Positions 36,113-44,435 of a stretch of 64,000 nucleotides of DNA are shown in pieces (the first letter of the stretch is position 1; the number at the start of each line of letters is the position of its first letter). Location: contig PABK01000032.1 in NCBI GenBank assembly GCA_002699145.1, positions 1 to 64,000 of the forward strand, in the 5' to 3' direction. The position numbers and the translations under genes are program-made. A model generated the notes under the pieces. The model saw only the letters and a list, made by a program, of their open reading frames with translations, was not told the origin of the DNA and did not search any database. Source of the DNA: Halioglobus sp. (GTDB lineage: Bacteria; Pseudomonadota; Gammaproteobacteria; Pseudomonadales; Halieaceae).

Positions 36113-36218
36113 GTTTGTATCCTTCCCCGTAGTGTTGTCAAAATGTGGTACCACACACGGGGAAATTCTCGCACAAGGCCACAGCGCAATACAGGGCACT
36201 TTGACCAATTATTTCAGG

Positions 36219-36255
36219 GCCGCCGGCCTCTCTGGCAGTCTGGCCAGCCGGCGGC
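36219..36255. other. 9-bp perfect inverted repeat upstream of tamA
   Basis: GCCGCCGGC (36219-36227) and GCCGGCGGC (36247-36255) flank a 19-base loop in the gap between the DUF2860-like gene and tamA. No T-run follows. It could be a leader structure of the tamA message or a factor-independent pause; no function can be claimed. Confidence 0.4.
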
Positions 36256-36337
36256 ACGGTATGTTGCAGATGCATTACAATGCCGGTCCCGGCCGGGTTC
36301 CCGGGCGCTGCCAGCGCCGCCGCAGCCGTGCAATCCA

Positions 36338-38089
36338 GTGATTACACCGGTGACAAGGTTCTGCCTGCTGCTACTGCTCCTGCTGCTGCCGATCGCGGTC
36401 CGCGCGGCCAGCCTGGACTATTCCCTGTCCGGACTGGACGGGGAACTCAAGCGCAACGTGCGCGCCTGGCTGGGCGCCCCGCCGCAGACCGCGCGCGAGC
36501 GCCAGGCCTTCGTCTCGCTGGCCCGCTCCAGGGTGAGCAAGGCCCTGCAGGCGCTGGGCTACTACCAGCCGCAGATCGATATCGAGGTCACACGCGAGGA
36601 ACCGGCCTGGTCCATGCACATCGCGGTGCAGCCGGGTGAGCCGGTGCGCATCAGCGCCATCGACATCCGCCTGCTCGGCGAGGCGGCGCGGGACGAGGAG
36701 TTCGCCAGCCTGCGCCAGGATCCCGGTTTTGCCGTCGGCGACCCCCTGCACCACGGCCACTTCGACGCTTTTCGCGGGCGCCTGCTGACCCTGGCCCAGC
36801 GGCGCGGCTACTTCGACGCCGACGTCAGCCAAAGCCAGGCGCGGGTGGATGCCGCCGCCGGGACGGCGACGATCGAGGTGGAACTGGCCAGCGGGCGGCG
36901 CTACCGCTTCGGCGAACTGCGCTACGACAGCGGCCTGGTCGACGCGGACACCCTGCGGGCGCTGCGCAGCTTCGAACGCGGCGCCCCCTACCTGCAGGCC
37001 AGGCTGCGCGAGTTCCAGGCCCGTATTCAGGGCACGGGCTTTTTCTCGGCGGTGCTGGTGGAACCGGTGGAGGAGCAGGCGCGCGACGGCGAGGTGCCCA
37101 TCGCACTGAGCCTGCAACCGGCGCGGCGGCACAGCTTCGACCTGGGCGTGGGGTACAGTACCGACACGGAAGAGCGTGTCTCACTGACCTGGCGTACGCC
37201 GCGCATCAATCGCTTCGGCCACAGCCAGCAGACACGCCTGGTTTACTCGCGCATCAATCCCAGCGGGCGCATCACCTACAACATCCCCCTGACACACCCG
37301 CTCAACGACATCCTGCAGCTGTGGGGCAGGACCGAGGAAAACGAGTTCGGCGACCTGGACAGCCAGCAGGACGAGCTCGGCCTGCGCCGTGAACTGCGCC
37401 GGCGCGACTGGATTCTCGGTTACTCCCTGCGCCAGCTCGACGAGTCCTGGGAGCTGCTGGGCGAGAGCCGCAGCAATGACTACCTGCTGCCCGGCGTCTC
37501 ACTCTCCAGTCGCATGCAGCGCGGTTCACTGGTCGACCCCCAGGCCGGCTTCAGCCAGCTGTACACGCTGGAAGCCGCGCGCGACAACCTCGGCTCGGAC
37601 GTCGACCTGGTGCGCCTGACCGGGCAGCTGCGCTACGTCTACACACCGCTCGAGCGGCACCGTCTGGTGGGCCGCACGGAACTCGGCTTCGCCGACATCG
37701 ACGATGAAGACCGCACCGAGCTGGCGCCCTCGCTGAACTTCTTCGCCGGCGGCAGCCAGAGCATTCGCGGCTTCGGCTACCAGTCGATCGGCAACGAGGT
37801 GCGGGTGACCCGCGCCAGCGGCGAACAGAAGAAATTGGTCGTGGGCGGTGATCGCCTGTTCGTGCTCAGTGCGGAGTACCAGTACTACTTCAGCGACCAG
37901 TGGCGTGGCGCCCTGTTCGTCGACGGCGGTGACGCCTTCGACGCCGGCGAATTCGACTGGCACTTCGGCGCCGGCTTCGGCATCCACTACCTGTCGCCGG
38001 TGGGCGCGATCCGCCTGGAACTGGGCAACAGCCTGAGCGAGGACAACCCGGACTGGCAACTGCACGTGAACATCGGGGCGGAGTTCTGA
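36338..38089 (+). CDS. tamA: TamA, Omp85-family outer-membrane assembly protein
   Basis: About 583 aa from GTG 36338 (GTG 36350 is equally possible). The track ORF begins at 36143, upstream of any signal peptide. The signal FCLLLLLLLLPIAVRAAS is followed by three POTRA-like domains (about 25-255) and a 16-strand Omp85 barrel. The barrel includes lid-lock motif-like FFAGGSQSIRGFGYQSIG and YYFSDQWRGALFVDGGDAF, ending in NIGAEF. TamA works with TamB to insert a subset of outer-membrane proteins and in phospholipid transport. tamB begins 2 bp after the stop, the standard arrangement. Confidence 0.94.
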   Translation: MITPVTRFCLLLLLLLLPIAVRAASLDYSLSGLDGELKRNVRAWLGAPPQTARERQAFVSLARSRVSKALQALGYYQPQIDIEVTREEPAWSMHIAVQPGEPVRISAIDIRLLGEAARDEEFASLRQDPGFAVGDPLHHGHFDAFRGRLLTLAQRRGYFDADVSQSQARVDAAAGTATIEVELASGRRYRFGELRYDSGLVDADTLRALRSFERGAPYLQARLREFQARIQGTGFFSAVLVEPVEEQARDGEVPIALSLQPARRHSFDLGVGYSTDTEERVSLTWRTPRINRFGHSQQTRLVYSRINPSGRITYNIPLTHPLNDILQLWGRTEENEFGDLDSQQDELGLRRELRRRDWILGYSLRQLDESWELLGESRSNDYLLPGVSLSSRMQRGSLVDPQAGFSQLYTLEAARDNLGSDVDLVRLTGQLRYVYTPLERHRLVGRTELGFADIDDEDRTELAPSLNFFAGGSQSIRGFGYQSIGNEVRVTRASGEQKKLVVGGDRLFVLSAEYQYYFSDQWRGALFVDGGDAFDAGEFDWHFGAGFGIHYLSPVGAIRLELGNSLSEDNPDWQLHVNIGAEF

Positions 38090-38091
38090 GT

Positions 38092-41000
38092 ATGCGCGGC
38101 ACACGTTGGCTGGTGCTCGTTCTCGTACTCGCGCTGCTGTGCCTGCCGCTGGCGCTGCCGTACACCGCCGCCGGCACACGGCTGGCGCTGGCCGTGGCGC
38201 AGCGCGTGAGCGGACTGCAGATCGATTACCGCGGCGGCACCCTCGCCGGTGCGCTGCAACTGGCATCACTGCGCCTGGACTGGGACGCGGGCGCCATCGT
38301 CCTGCGTGACGTGCAGGTGGCGATGGACGCGAGCTGCCTGTGGGACAGGGCCATCTGCGTGCGCCACCTGGCGATTGCGCGCACGGACATCCTGCTCGAA
38401 CCCGACTCGCAAGCTGCGCCGGCGGCGAGCACACAGGCGGGGCCACTGCGCCTGCCCTGGGCCCTGCACGCACCCGACATCGAGCTGGGCGCTGTGCAGG
38501 TGCGTTGGCGCGGCGGTCGCTGGAGCCAGGGGGCGGCGCGTGTGGCCCTGAGCGCGCAGGACGCGCAGCTGCGCGTGGCCAGTGCGCAGGTCGCCGCGGC
38601 GCTGCTGGAGATAGATGCATCGCAGCCGGCAACCGACCCCGGGCGCCTCTCCCTGCCGGCGCTGGACCTGCCCATGGACCTGCGCGTCGAATCCCTGTCC
38701 GTGGCGCCTGCGGTCCTGGTGCTGGGCGACAACCGTCACACCCTGGCGTCGCTGCAGTTGTCCGGGCGCTGGTCCGGCGACCGCCTGACACTGCGCGGAC
38801 TGTCTCTCGACGCGGGCAGCCAGGGCCAGCTCGCCCTGACACAGGGGCAGTTGCGTTTCGCCGGGGAGTGGCCGCTGAGCGCCGCGCTGGCCCTGCAGTC
38901 GCGCGAGCTGCTCACGCAGCCGCTGTTGCGCGATCGCCGCTTACAACTCGAAGTGGACGGTGACCTGGGCGACCTCACCATTGCCCTGCACGCCCCGGGA
39001 GCCCCCTCGGCACGCGGACGCGCACAGGTCGACGCGCTGGCGCCGGACCTTCCCTTCGAAGCCGAACTGGAAGTGGACGCCCTGCAGGACCTGAATCTGC
39101 CACGGCCCGAAGGGTTGCCCGGGGGCCTGGCGGTCACCGCCCTGCAGCCGCCCCTGCAGGTAGCTGCGCGCGGCACGCTCGACAGTCAGCATATCCAACT
39201 CGAAGGCAGTGCCCAGACCGTCGGCTACGGGACAGTGGCGTTCGCACTGGGCGTGCGTCACAGCCAGGACCGTTTTCTTATCGAGTCGCTGGACCTGCGC
39301 GACCGCGATGGCGGCAACCAGCTCAGCGCCTCGGGGGAACTGAGCCTGCAACCGGCGCTGCGCTGGTCCCTGCGCGGCAGCAGCCAGGGCCTGGCGCTCG
39401 CGCCGCTATCGCCGCAGTTGCGCGGCACGCTCGCCGGGGGTTTCAACAGCCGCGGCCGGGTGGAGGAAGATAGCTGGCAGGCCGAATTCAGCGAGGTCGA
39501 ATTGCGCGGGAACATCAACGCGCAGCCGGCGACCGTCAGCGGCGCCATCAGACTGGGTGACGGCGCGGTGCTGCCCGGTACGGACCTGCGCGCCAACGTT
39601 AACGAGGCGCGCCTGTGGTTGCGTGCCGACGCTGCGCAACGCGGTGCGGCACAGCTGGACCTGGAGATCGACGACCTGGCGCGCTGGCAGGCGGATACGG
39701 CTGGGCGCCTGCTGGTTCATGCGCAAATTTCTGCATCAGGCGACGCCTACCAGGTGCGGGGCGTGCTCGAGGACGCCCGCCACGACCAGTTGTCGCTGGC
39801 GCGGGCAACTGTCGAGGCCAGCTACCGCCGCGACCAGGGGCAGGACTTCGATGCCAGCGTGGCGGCCAGCGGCCTGCGCCTGGGTGCGACCGCGCTGGAC
39901 AGCGTGGACCTGGCGGCGAGCGGCGATGCGCAACGACAACGACTGCAACTGCGCGTCAGCGGCGACCTGACGGGCGAGCTGGACCTGAACGGCAGTGGTG
40001 ATCGCCAGGACTGGCGCGCCGAGCTGCGCAGCTCGACGCTGCGCCTGCAACTACCGGCGGGCACCGAACTACAGGGCGACCTGCACGGCAACGTGGCGGG
40101 TCGCTGGCCACGGGGTGGCGCGCCGCGCGGCAGCCTGGCGCTGGCCACCGACGGCGTACTGCTCAGCCGCGTGCTCGCCGACGGCCAGCGCAGCGAGACG
40201 CAATGGGAGCGGGTGGAACTGGAGGCCAGCACCGGGGACGCAGCCAGCCGCCTGGCGGCGGCGCTGTACCGGGGCAGCCAGGCAGAGTTGCGCCTGCAAC
40301 TGGGGCTGGAGGGCGCCGCGCCGCGCCAACTGGACGGGCGCCTGTCCCTTCAGGACATGCAACTGGCGCCGCTGCTACCGCTGCTGCCGATGCTTGAATC
40401 CCTGTCAGGTGCGCTGCACGGCGAACTGCAACTGTCGGGCACACTGGATGAACCGCGGGCAGTGGGAGCCGTGACCCTGCGCGATGGCGAACTCTTGCTG
40501 ACCGGCAACCCGACACCGCTACAGGCCCTGCAACTGGACATCGAAGCGACCGACGGCGGCGCCGCGCTGCGCGGCAGCGGGCTACTCGGTGGCGGCGCAC
40601 TCAACCTGCGCGGCAATTTCACCGCGGCGCCGCTATCACTGGCGCTGCAGGTGCAGGGCCGCGAACACCATGTCTTCTACCCGCCATCGACGCAGTTGCT
40701 GCTGTCCGAGGCACTGCAGATCAGCCTGCGCGGTTATGACCTGGATGTACGCGGTGACGTGACCGTGCACGAAGGCGAGTTGCAGTTCGAGCAATTGCCC
40801 GAGGGCGGTGTGGACCTGTCGCCGGACGTGGTGCGCATCGATATCGAAGCGGAAACCCTGGAACAGAACATCCCGCTGGCCATCAGCATGGACCTGGGCG
40901 TGCATATCGAGGACGGTTTCGCCATTACCGGCAAACTGGTGGACTCCACCCTGTCCGGCGACCTGCGCCTGCGGCGGGCCCCGCGCCAGCCGCTACAGCT

Positions 41001-41589
41001 GTTCGGCAGCCTGCAGACGGCCGGCGGCAACCTGCGCGCCTTCGAGCGCGTGCTGGCGGTGAAACGCGGCGTGGTCAGTTTCAACGGCAACCCGAACAAC
41101 CCGCTGGTGGACCTGCGCGCGGAGCGCATCATCAGCGCAGAGAACATCGTCGCCGGGGTGCACGTGCACGGTGCGCTGGAGGAAAACCTCACCCTGGATG
41201 TGTATTCGGACCCGGTGATGTCGCCGGGGGACGCCATGTCCTACCTGATCTGGGGGCGCAGCGTGCAGACCGGCAACACCGGCGACGGCACGGTGGTCGC
41301 CCTGTCGCTGGCCGGCAGCGTGGTCAATCGCTCAAGCCTGGTGGAGAGCATCAACCGCGTGCCGGGAATCAGCGACGTCAGTTTCGGCGCGGAGGGCAGC
41401 GAGGACGACGCCGCGGCCACGGTCAGCGGCTACATCGGCCAGCGCATTTACCTCTCCTACGGGTTCGGTATCTACGAACCCGTCAACATTCTCACGGCGC
41501 GCCTGTTCCTGCAGTCGCGCCTGTGGCTGGAGGTGGTGAGCCGGCTGGAGAATTCCGCGGACCTGTACTACTCATTCGACATCGACTGA
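38092..41589 (+). CDS. tamB: TamB, translocation and assembly module / AsmA-like protein
   Basis: 1165 aa, a typical TamB length. One N-terminal inner-membrane helix (6-24) precedes a long run of beta-strands that should form a hydrophobic groove spanning the periplasm. The conserved DUF490/TamB C-terminal domain (about 850-1165) includes MSPGDAMSYLIWGRS, DVSFGAEGSEDDAAATVSGY and YLSYGFGIYEPVN. It bridges to TamA and is thought to move lipids or nascent outer-membrane proteins. Its last 18 bp overlap the 3' end of the convergent redoxin gene. Confidence 0.95.
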   Translation: MRGTRWLVLVLVLALLCLPLALPYTAAGTRLALAVAQRVSGLQIDYRGGTLAGALQLASLRLDWDAGAIVLRDVQVAMDASCLWDRAICVRHLAIARTDILLEPDSQAAPAASTQAGPLRLPWALHAPDIELGAVQVRWRGGRWSQGAARVALSAQDAQLRVASAQVAAALLEIDASQPATDPGRLSLPALDLPMDLRVESLSVAPAVLVLGDNRHTLASLQLSGRWSGDRLTLRGLSLDAGSQGQLALTQGQLRFAGEWPLSAALALQSRELLTQPLLRDRRLQLEVDGDLGDLTIALHAPGAPSARGRAQVDALAPDLPFEAELEVDALQDLNLPRPEGLPGGLAVTALQPPLQVAARGTLDSQHIQLEGSAQTVGYGTVAFALGVRHSQDRFLIESLDLRDRDGGNQLSASGELSLQPALRWSLRGSSQGLALAPLSPQLRGTLAGGFNSRGRVEEDSWQAEFSEVELRGNINAQPATVSGAIRLGDGAVLPGTDLRANVNEARLWLRADAAQRGAAQLDLEIDDLARWQADTAGRLLVHAQISASGDAYQVRGVLEDARHDQLSLARATVEASYRRDQGQDFDASVAASGLRLGATALDSVDLAASGDAQRQRLQLRVSGDLTGELDLNGSGDRQDWRAELRSSTLRLQLPAGTELQGDLHGNVAGRWPRGGAPRGSLALATDGVLLSRVLADGQRSETQWERVELEASTGDAASRLAAALYRGSQAELRLQLGLEGAAPRQLDGRLSLQDMQLAPLLPLLPMLESLSGALHGELQLSGTLDEPRAVGAVTLRDGELLLTGNPTPLQALQLDIEATDGGAALRGSGLLGGGALNLRGNFTAAPLSLALQVQGREHHVFYPPSTQLLLSEALQISLRGYDLDVRGDVTVHEGELQFEQLPEGGVDLSPDVVRIDIEAETLEQNIPLAISMDLGVHIEDGFAITGKLVDSTLSGDLRLRRAPRQPLQLFGSLQTAGGNLRAFERVLAVKRGVVSFNGNPNNPLVDLRAERIISAENIVAGVHVHGALEENLTLDVYSDPVMSPGDAMSYLIWGRSVQTGNTGDGTVVALSLAGSVVNRSSLVESINRVPGISDVSFGAEGSEDDAAATVSGYIGQRIYLSYGFGIYEPVNILTARLFLQSRLWLEVVSRLENSADLYYSFDID

Positions 41590-42369
41590 GCCGCCGCCGG
41601 GCGGTGACAGCCCCGCCCTGTCCAGGTGTTCGCGCATGGCGGCCAGCACGACTTCCGGCGGCGAGCGGCGCTGGTAATTCTGCGCCATGTCCACCCACAG
41701 CACCCTGCCGCGGCGATCGACCAGCAGGGAGGTGGGCACCGGCAAGGCCTCGGCGTCATCGCCAGGGGGGCCGGATTGTACGGTCTGGTTCCGCAGGCCA
41801 AACGCATCGGTGATCACCAGATCCGGGTCGGACAACATGCGCGCCTGCAGACCGTGCTGGTCGCGCCCGGCACGGATCTCCTCCGGGTGATCGGTGCTGA
41901 TGGTCACGACCTGCACGCCGCGCAGATCGAACTCGGCCCGAAGCTCCTCCCATCGCCGTAACTCGGCGACACAGTAAGGTCACCAGTGGGCGCGGAAAAA
42001 CTTGATCAGTACGAGGTGGCCGTTGAGGGAACGCGAGTCGAACAGTTCGCCCTGGCTGTCAAGGGCGGTGAAGCGGGGAATCGTGTCGCCCACTCTGATC
42101 GCGTCGGCGGTCGCCTCCTGCGGGCTGATGGCGATGGTCGCGGGCAACAGGCCGCCGATCGCGATGGCCAGCACCGCGGCCGCGCCACCGAGCCAGCCGG
42201 CGCCGCGCACCAGGGCCGCCACGCCCAGCGCCGCGGCGCCCAGGAACAGCAGCACGAACAGGGTACGGTTTTCCGGGATGGCCACCTGGCCTATGCGGTA
42301 ATTCCACAGCGCCGCGCCGCCCACGGCCAGGGCGAGTGCGGCGAATGCGAGAACTTTTCCACGCTGCAT
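41572..42369 (-). CDS. Candidate selenoprotein: membrane redoxin with in-frame UGA (UxxC)
   Basis: Read from ATG 42369 (CGGAGA upstream), the frame gives three membrane helices (about 5-23, 37-55, 62-80) and an AhpC/TSA-type thioredoxin-fold domain. A single TGA at 41982-41980 is codon 130; the same frame then runs to 41572, 265 residues in all. Local sequence is LIKFFRAHW-UGA-PYCVAELRRWEEL, where redoxins have Cys-Pro-x-Cys, so UGA stands for selenocysteine in a UxxC motif. The following hairpin fits a bacterial SECIS. Upstream and downstream parts stay in one frame, and the C-terminal half keeps TSLLVDRRGRVLWVDM. It probably reduces or oxidises periplasmic thiols. ORF callers split it into 41980-42717 and 41572-41916. 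A nonsense mutation is the alternative. Confidence 0.82.
41953..41969 (-). promoter_or_regulatory. SECIS-like hairpin after the in-frame UGA
   Basis: On the coding strand a perfect 6-bp stem, TCGCCG/CGGCGA, encloses the loop AGTTA, extended below by G-U and U-G pairs. The loop starts 16 bases after the UGA and its second base is G followed by U. That meets the published bacterial SECIS rules: loop 16-37 nt after UGA, with G within the first two loop bases. SelB would bind it. Confidence 0.7.
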
Positions 42370-42506
42370 AGCGCGTCTCCGGGTAGACAGCGGGTCTAAT
42401 CCTGCCCCTGAGTATAGTGACGATACCGAACGCCCGCCAGGGGGCCTGCAGGCGGATGAGACCAGTCTCGCATACCCATCAATTTCGAGCAGTGAGTGCC
42501 ACGGCA

Positions 42507-43553
42507 CTAGGCCGTGGCGAACCTGCCCCGTGTCCTGTTGGCGATGGCCACCAGCGACAGCATGACCGGCACCTCGACCAGCACCCCGACCACCGTGGCC
42601 AGCGCCGCGCCGGAGTGCAGGCCGAACAGGCTGATGGCGACAGCGACCGCCAGCTCGAAAAAGTTGGAGGTGCCGATCAGCGCCGCGGGGGCGGCGGTAT
42701 CGAAGGGCACCCGCCACAGATAGCCCCAGGCATAGGCAATCAGGAAGATACCGTAGCTCTGGATGACCAGCGGCACCGCGATCAGCGCAATGATCAGCGG
42801 TTTATCGACGATCGTCTGCGCCTGCAGCCCGAACAACAGGGCCACGGTGGCCAGCAGGCCCATCACGGACAGCGGCTTCACCCTGGCGATGAAAGCGGCG
42901 ATGCGCTCCCCGTCACCGGCGCGCGCGAGCATGCGGCGCGTGGCGTAGCCCGCCGCCAGCGGTGTCACGACATAGAGCACGACGGACAGCAGCAGCGTTT
43001 CCCAGGGCACGACGATATTCGTCACCCCCAGCAGGAAAGCCGCCAGGGGCGCGAAGGCGAACACCATGATGATATCGTTGATCGACACCTGCACCAGGGT
43101 GTAACCGGCGTCCCCGCGTACCAGCTGGCTCCAGACGAAGACCATCGCGGTGCAGGGCGCCACGCCGAGCAGGATCATCCCGGCGATGTACTCCTTCGCG
43201 CTCTCCGGCTCCACCAGGTCTGCGAACAGGTAGTCGAAAAACAGGATGCCCAGCGCCGCCATGCTGAAGGGCTTGATTAGCCAGTTGACCACGAGCGTCA
43301 GGCACAGGCCCTTGGGTCGCCGGCCCACGTCCCTGATCGAGGCGAAATCGACATTGACCATCATCGGGTAGATCATCAGCCAGATGAACACGGCGATGAC
43401 CAGGTTTACATTGGCGTGCTCGAACCGGGCGATCGCCGCGAACAGCCCGGGAAACACCAGGCCCAGGCCGACGCCGCCGCCGATGCACAGTGCTACCCAC
43501 AGGGAGAGGTAGCGTTCGAAGAAGCCCAGGGGGGACGCGCTGGATGCGCTCAC
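42507..43553 (-). CDS. acr3: Acr3-family arsenite efflux permease
   Basis: About 348 aa from GTG 43553, the expected Acr3 length; the track ORF adds 58 non-homologous residues overlapping arsI. About ten membrane helices are visible, with family words [25 protein letters not shown] (the conserved Cys needed for As(III) transport), SINDIIMVF and [15 protein letters not shown]. It exports trivalent arsenite using the proton gradient. Third gene of arsR-arsI-acr3, 13 bp after arsI, so it is induced with them. Confidence 0.94.
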
Positions 43554-43566
43554 GGCGAGGCCCGCC

Positions 43567-44052
43567 TCAGCCACAGCACGCCCCACTGCCGGCAGCCGGC
43601 TCGTCCGCAGTCTCGCGCGCCTGGGGCGGCGCACAGCACGCCGCACCGGTTTCCGTCGCGGTCCCGTCCTCTGGCGCACTGCCGAAGAACTGCGCCTCCT
43701 CCATGGTACGGTACGCCTCCCAGGCAATGCCGGCCGGGTCCTGCACCCAGGTCTTGTCGGAGCGTGCGTAGCAGCACACGGTCTCGCCCTCGTCGAACAG
43801 CGACAGGTCGGCGTCCTGCAGGCGCTGGCGCAACTCGCCCAGTTCCCCCTCTTCCTCGACCTGGATACCCAGGTGCTCCAGGCCGGTGCTGCCGGCGCGC
43901 GTGGAAATGGCGAAGTTGACGCAGGGTTCGTCGAGCATCCACTTCGCGTAATCGCTACGGATTTTCACCGGCTGTGCGCCAAACAGTGCGCTGTAGAACG
44001 TGACGGCCTGGTCGAGGTGCTCCACACCGACGTGGATATGCATGCGTTTCAT
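43567..44052 (-). CDS. arsI: ArsI C-As lyase (organoarsenical-degrading dioxygenase)
   Basis: 161 aa from ATG 44052; the track start 44163 lies inside arsR. A vicinal-oxygen-chelate fold protein with metal ligands in [18 protein letters not shown] and the late Glu of [10 protein letters not shown]. It has the substrate-binding vicinal Cys pair [17 protein letters not shown] that defines ArsI. It cleaves the C-As bond of trivalent methyl- and aromatic arsenicals, releasing As(III) for Acr3 to export. The Cys-rich tail (GAACCAPP...GACCG) is a further As-binding feature often seen in this family. 17 bp downstream of arsR. Confidence 0.92.
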
Positions 44053-44069
44053 CGTGTCTCTCCTGGTTG

Positions 44070-44435
44070 TCAGTTGGCTGCGGTATCGCAGCAGTTGGCC
44101 AGCTCGATAATGGAACAGCCCTTGTGCCTGTCTTCGTGAATCGTGGCGAACTCCCCGCTGCAACAGTCCTTGACCATGAAACTGATCAGGCCCTGCACCA
44201 CCTCGTAGTTGGCGCTGTAGATGATCGAGCGCCCCGCCCGGCGCGAGGTCACGATACCCGCGTTGGACAGGTGGTTGAGGTGAAAGGACAGCGAGTTGTG
44301 CGGGATGCCCAGGTGATCGCTGAGCGCGCCGGCGGGCATGCCCTGCCGGCCGGCCTCCACCAGCAGGCGGAAGGCGCGCAGGCGGGTCTCCTGGGACAGG
44401 GCGTCGAACAGGGTGGTCGCGGTCTTGATATCCAT
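44070..44435 (-). CDS. arsR: ArsR-family As(III)-responsive repressor
   Basis: 121 aa. The winged-helix domain covers residues 8-85 (ALSQETRLRAFRLLVEAG, HNSLSFHLNHLSNAGIV). As(III) is probably held by C-terminal Cys (VKDCCSGEF and ELANCCDTAAN) rather than the classical ELCVCDL helix, so this is the C-terminal-cysteine subtype known from Acidithiobacillus-like ArsR. It controls arsR-arsI-acr3. Its start codon lies inside the operator and a few bases from the predicted transcription start, which implies a leaderless message. Confidence 0.93.
   Translation of the reverse strand: MDIKTATTLFDALSQETRLRAFRLLVEAGRQGMPAGALSDHLGIPHNSLSFHLNHLSNAGIVTSRRAGRSIIYSANYEVVQGLISFMVKDCCSGEFATIHEDRHKGCSIIELANCCDTAAN

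Follow-up and report, generated by a model that had tools for sequence, protein, structure and literature searches.

Selenoproteins that combine an AhpC/TSA domain (PF00578) with a UxxC motif are already catalogued (PMC13188914 Table 1; PMC9312934; "Prx-like 1" in PMC2398784), in agreement with the original prediction, which had described UxxC redoxin selenoproteins as known in some bacteria. The protein analyzed here has both the PF00578 domain and the UxxC of the Prx-like thiol:disulfide oxidoreductase selenoproteins (PF00578, UxxC/UxxU), with selenocysteine (Sec) first in the motif; set against the published description of this class (representative WP_010940744.1), it differs by a three-helix anchor, by the sequence FFR[AG]HWUPYC and by a subfamily in which we found no Cys member. 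With the Redoxin family selenoprotein (PF08534, UxxC; PMC13188914 Table 1), also compared by description (representative HEU0032618.1), it has the redoxin type and UxxC in common. NF041054 (WAxxUGC_long, ResA-like) and NF040769 (SelL-related redox protein) are likewise Sec or Sec-related thioredoxin-fold redox proteins, but they differ from our protein in motif and architecture, and it scores far under their curated cut-offs (31.5 bits for 300 and 32.6 for 120, respectively), as it does under that of a further Sec redoxin model, NF040737 (19.1 for 270). No NCBIfam model (June 2026) reaches its cut-off with this protein, and the motif UPYC was not found together with "selenoprotein" in the literature searched. 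The claim of an unannotated selenoprotein is therefore plausible as regards existing models, while the kind of protein is catalogued and the novelty is at the subfamily level. What is added to the bacterial selenoproteome is an un-modelled subfamily whose gene current annotation would split in two, and in which Sec is used in a predicted membrane-anchored periplasmic redoxin that has no Cys version among the sequences searched.

The window, i.e. the whole stretch of 64,000 nucleotides analyzed, carries this gene on its minus strand, from an ATG at 42369..42367 to a terminal TGA at 41574..41572 (Table 1). With TGA translated as U, the 265-residue frame has a sole interruption at codon 130 (VLIKFFRAHW-U-PYCVAELRRWE), so that the frame is indeed broken by TGA alone, as first proposed. 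Mechanical ORF calling cuts the gene into two pieces (42717..41980 and 41916..41572), which had also been anticipated. No promoter- or terminator-like sites were found around it.

Table 1. Coordinates of the features of the selenoprotein locus in the window.
Feature	Position	Strand	Basis
Selenoprotein gene, 265 codons and stop	41572..42369	minus	TGA=U translation; Pfam AhpC-TSA; AlphaFold2 model
UGA codon 130, read as Sec, position one of the UPYC active-site motif	41980..41982	minus	TGA in 37/37 relatives with full-context site
SECIS hairpin with AGUUA loop on a 6-7 bp stem; nt +13 to +31, counted from the U of UGA	41952..41970	minus	common fold, covariation, frozen synonymous sites, bSECIS fit
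Likely ribosome-binding site GGAG, 7 nt upstream of the ATG	42377..42380	minus	sequence
Predicted three-helix membrane anchor (helices at residues 3-26, 35-54, 59-79), N-in/C-out	42132..42369	minus	structure model; charge counts, 36 members
Redoxin domain (about residues 89-250), UPYC at start of first helix	41620..42105	minus	Pfam, PDB fold matches, invariant residues

The locus is very probably one selenoprotein gene, with SelB-dependent Sec at codon 130 of a three-helix-anchored periplasmic redoxin, likely an oxidoreductase. Sec decoding of this codon appears near-certain, because the genome has the sel machinery, the codon is UGA in all members and Cys in none, and codons 131-139 are frozen in their synonymous choice and form a bSECIS hairpin. 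SelB with Sec-tRNA(Sec) would bind this hairpin just past codon 130, and Sec would be inserted at the UGA to give the 265-residue protein. Its three N-terminal membrane helices (N-in) would then hold a thioredoxin/AhpC-TSA-fold domain in the periplasm, where the active site Sec130-Pro-Tyr-Cys133 would cycle between the selenol/thiol and the selenenylsulfide (Sec-S-Cys) forms. The most likely function is that of a thiol:disulfide (or peroxide) oxidoreductase, acting through this putative selenenylsulfide intermediate. The initial reading of a Sec at the redox Cys position of a membrane redoxin is supported by the machinery, by the UGA common to all members and by the Cys of distant relatives.

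The Pfam AhpC-TSA model matches residues 93-225 with 84.6 bits (gathering score 26), and Redoxin (PF08534) matches with 66.7 bits. The AlphaFold2 model (pLDDT 74.8) contains the three membrane helices that had been proposed, followed by a thioredoxin-like fold in which residue 130 starts the first long helix of the domain. Fold matches in the PDB are Bcp1, Bcp4, AhpE, AhpC and ResA. Over 36 members the N-terminus has on average 1.72 K+R vs 0.03 D+E and loop 2 has 1.33 vs 0.08; loop 1 and the region after helix 3 are acidic-biased. Under the positive-inside rule this charge bias would make the redoxin domain face the periplasm.

Members were sought among 57 relatives, in 140 genomes from the same family and 369 from the class, and by a pattern scan across GTDB; the family set consists of 36 distinct aligned members plus L075. 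Codon 130 is TGA, and never Cys, in each of the 37 members whose site is seen in full context. Their hosts belong to one gammaproteobacterial family, apart from three Myxococcota MAGs whose members show 64-66% identity. H128, W129, U130, P131, Y132, C133 and P212 are invariant in the 36 aligned members, P212 being likely the cis-proline; in L075 a Ser replaces P131 (HWUSYC). The coding sequence is conserved in relatives on both sides of the in-frame UGA, as the original prediction held for the two flanks, and the half that follows it has a mean identity of 0.66; the degenerate C-terminal half in close relatives that would have spoken against a selenoprotein is thus not what is seen.

A Cys member of the Sec subfamily was found neither among the 57 relatives nor in the family and class genomes, nor by the GTDB-wide scan. 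Closest among the Cys proteins are some distant membrane redoxins (L029, L030, L032, L033 and L065; 25-30% identity), which likewise have N-terminal membrane helices and a redoxin domain, with C-P-x-C for U-P-Y-C, but carry Cys for Sec and no UGA. As to the suggested check of Cys homologues at codon 130, they have a Cys in the equivalent W-C-P-x-C motif (FYRGNW-C-PLC). In the 369 class genomes only one further match, a Cys protein, reaches E 1e-20, and the Sec subfamily therefore looks narrow. In the tree the Cys outgroups attach by very long branches, and one or two Sec/Cys changes fit alike. A phage or plasmid origin was considered and rejected: viral contigs contain no relatives, and plasmids yield only distant peroxiredoxin-like proteins of about 32% identity.

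The core of the hairpin, UCGCCG-AGUUA-CGGCGA (41969..41953), is lengthened by one G-U pair; its 5-nt loop has G at the second position, followed by U. The perfect 6-bp stem with loop AGTTA and second-position G was thus correctly described; the distance of 16 nt holds from the UGA to the loop and not to the start of the stem, which lies 10 nt past the UGA. The published bSECIS model demands a loop of 3-9 nt, a stem of 4-16 bp, a G within the first two loop bases, a spacing of 16-37 nt and an MFE of -7.5 or below (PMC13188914). The hairpin satisfies every one of these constraints, the stem-loop core alone reaching -10.9 kcal/mol. Compared with shuffled sequences its folding energy has a z of -2.0 (8 of 200 shuffles are equally good), so that energy by itself is weak evidence and it is conservation that lifts the hairpin far above chance. 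The same 6-7 bp stem with a 5-nt loop AGUU[AG] is formed in 35 of the 36 aligned members, which bears out the SECIS-like element originally proposed. Stem pair 17-27 is C-G in 10 members, G-C in 3 and G-U in 22. The change of its 5' base turns Ala into Gly, and its 3' base is the synonymous third position of an Arg codon; the change is thus compensatory for the RNA and silent for the protein on that side. The exception is the most divergent member, L027, which does not fold into this hairpin; its alternative structure is weaker (-6.7 kcal/mol) and has a loop that starts with two bases other than G.

Synonymous choice was assessed by shuffling synonymous codons inside each member's gene. Conservation z is 22-30 in the six-codon windows that begin at codons 130-135, as against 2.7 for the median of the whole gene and a maximum of 8.6 in windows distant from the UGA site. 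This null ignores shared ancestry, likely the reason for a median above zero, and the evidence is carried by the contrast along the gene. Synonymous choice is frozen only after the UGA, at codons 131-139, i.e. those which form the hairpin; 35 of the 36 aligned members, for example, use TTA or TTG for Leu137. This is a clean example of SECIS selection legible from frozen synonymous codons and could help train predictors.

The original prediction had called for selA, selB, selC and selD in the same genome, and all four are present, including the selB and selC whose absence would have told against it. The tRNA-Sec passes the gathering score with 69.9 bits, is likewise called SeC (anticodon tca) by ARAGORN, and is adjoined by selB (394 bits) and selA (581 bits) on contig C57, at 199.5-202.9 kb; selD (250 bits) is on contig C25. 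The latter (G000:C25:48140-49042, L053) lies inside an open frame of 772 residues, suggestive of a fusion like the known Ndh-SelD type. Among the 140 family genomes selA occurs in 29 of 33 carriers of the gene vs 20 of 107 non-carriers (Fisher p 6e-13, uncorrected for kinship), and the two genes are 3-16 kb apart in seven of the eight genomes that have both on one contig. All three Myxococcota carriers have tRNA-Sec; selB is clear in one and partial in two.

One base change (TGC or TGT to TGA) would suffice to place a lone UGA in the frame at a Cys-like position, whether in a decaying Cys redoxin or by sequencing error. Conservation refutes this reading, whose probability is negligible: the UGA is common to 37 sequences from two phyla, the half that follows is conserved and the downstream synonymous sites are frozen. 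We give equally little credit to a reading as two genes, one for a membrane peptide that stops at the UGA and one for a redoxin fragment downstream; mechanical ORF lists do give two ORFs, but in the model the cut would interrupt the beta-alpha unit of the active site in a single thioredoxin fold, the next listed start (GTG) is more than 20 codons further on, and relatives show no other break in the frame. What counts against one Sec-containing protein is the misfit of the L027 hairpin, the lack of a conserved operon partner, and four carriers in which selA, selB and selC were not detected. Three of these are incomplete MAGs; the fourth, G029 (L026, L062), consists of 6 contigs with a completeness rating of 100% and has the gene with a perfect standard hairpin. 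It is the argument for UGA being decoded otherwise in some hosts, by near-cognate readthrough or with a Sec system that is unusual or has lately been lost, in which case not all members would be selenoproteins. This seems very unlikely, because the window's own genome has a full Sec system and G029 is accounted for equally by its simplest readings, namely that a contig is missing or that the system was lost recently.

If the protein is a true selenoprotein, it may act chiefly as a peroxidase rather than as a thiol:disulfide oxidoreductase, a possibility to be taken seriously though we lean against it. By E-value the best fold matches are two peroxiredoxins, Bcp1 and Bcp4, while a ResA-type enzyme ranks fourth; the distant Cys relatives found on plasmids carry the annotation "peroxiredoxin-like". 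But UPYC and the invariant Pro212 resemble TlpA/ResA-type CxxC enzymes, and Sec-x-x-Cys stands where classical peroxiredoxins have their Thr-x-x-Cys motif.

No operon partner is conserved among the relatives and the context therefore does not indicate a substrate for the predicted oxidoreductase. Immediately upstream on the same strand (42507-44435, minus) are arsR, an ArsI/CadI-type VOC gene and the arsenite exporter gene acr3; as no relative keeps the acr3 neighbor, a link with arsenic was treated as incidental. A tamA-tamB pair occupies 36143-41589 on the plus strand, tamB being convergent with the selenoprotein gene and overlapping its 3' end by 18 bp.

In seven relatives (L056, L061, L082, L091, L092, L093 and L106/L113) the convergent neighbor encodes another redoxin with a UGA, about 410-430 aa long (VWUPPCWTQLGELRD), with an AhpC-TSA domain and a DsbD_N-like C-terminal region; it also occurs as L107 in a Myxococcota genome. 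It is absent beside the selenoprotein gene in the window's genome, and no NCBIfam model scores above cut-off for it. This adjacency hints at a pathway shared with the UPYC redoxin. It is conceivable, though rather doubtful, that the UPYC redoxins are an obligate-Sec family tethered to the membrane on its periplasmic side and that, with the VWUPPC selenoredoxin, they make up a Se-dependent thiol relay in the periplasm, inherited together with the sel cluster. G038 (L046/L094) and G014 (L089) contain a third candidate selenoprotein, with the motif NRS[VA]DW-U-P[FY]C; elsewhere its redoxin family has Cys (SRSxDWCPYC).
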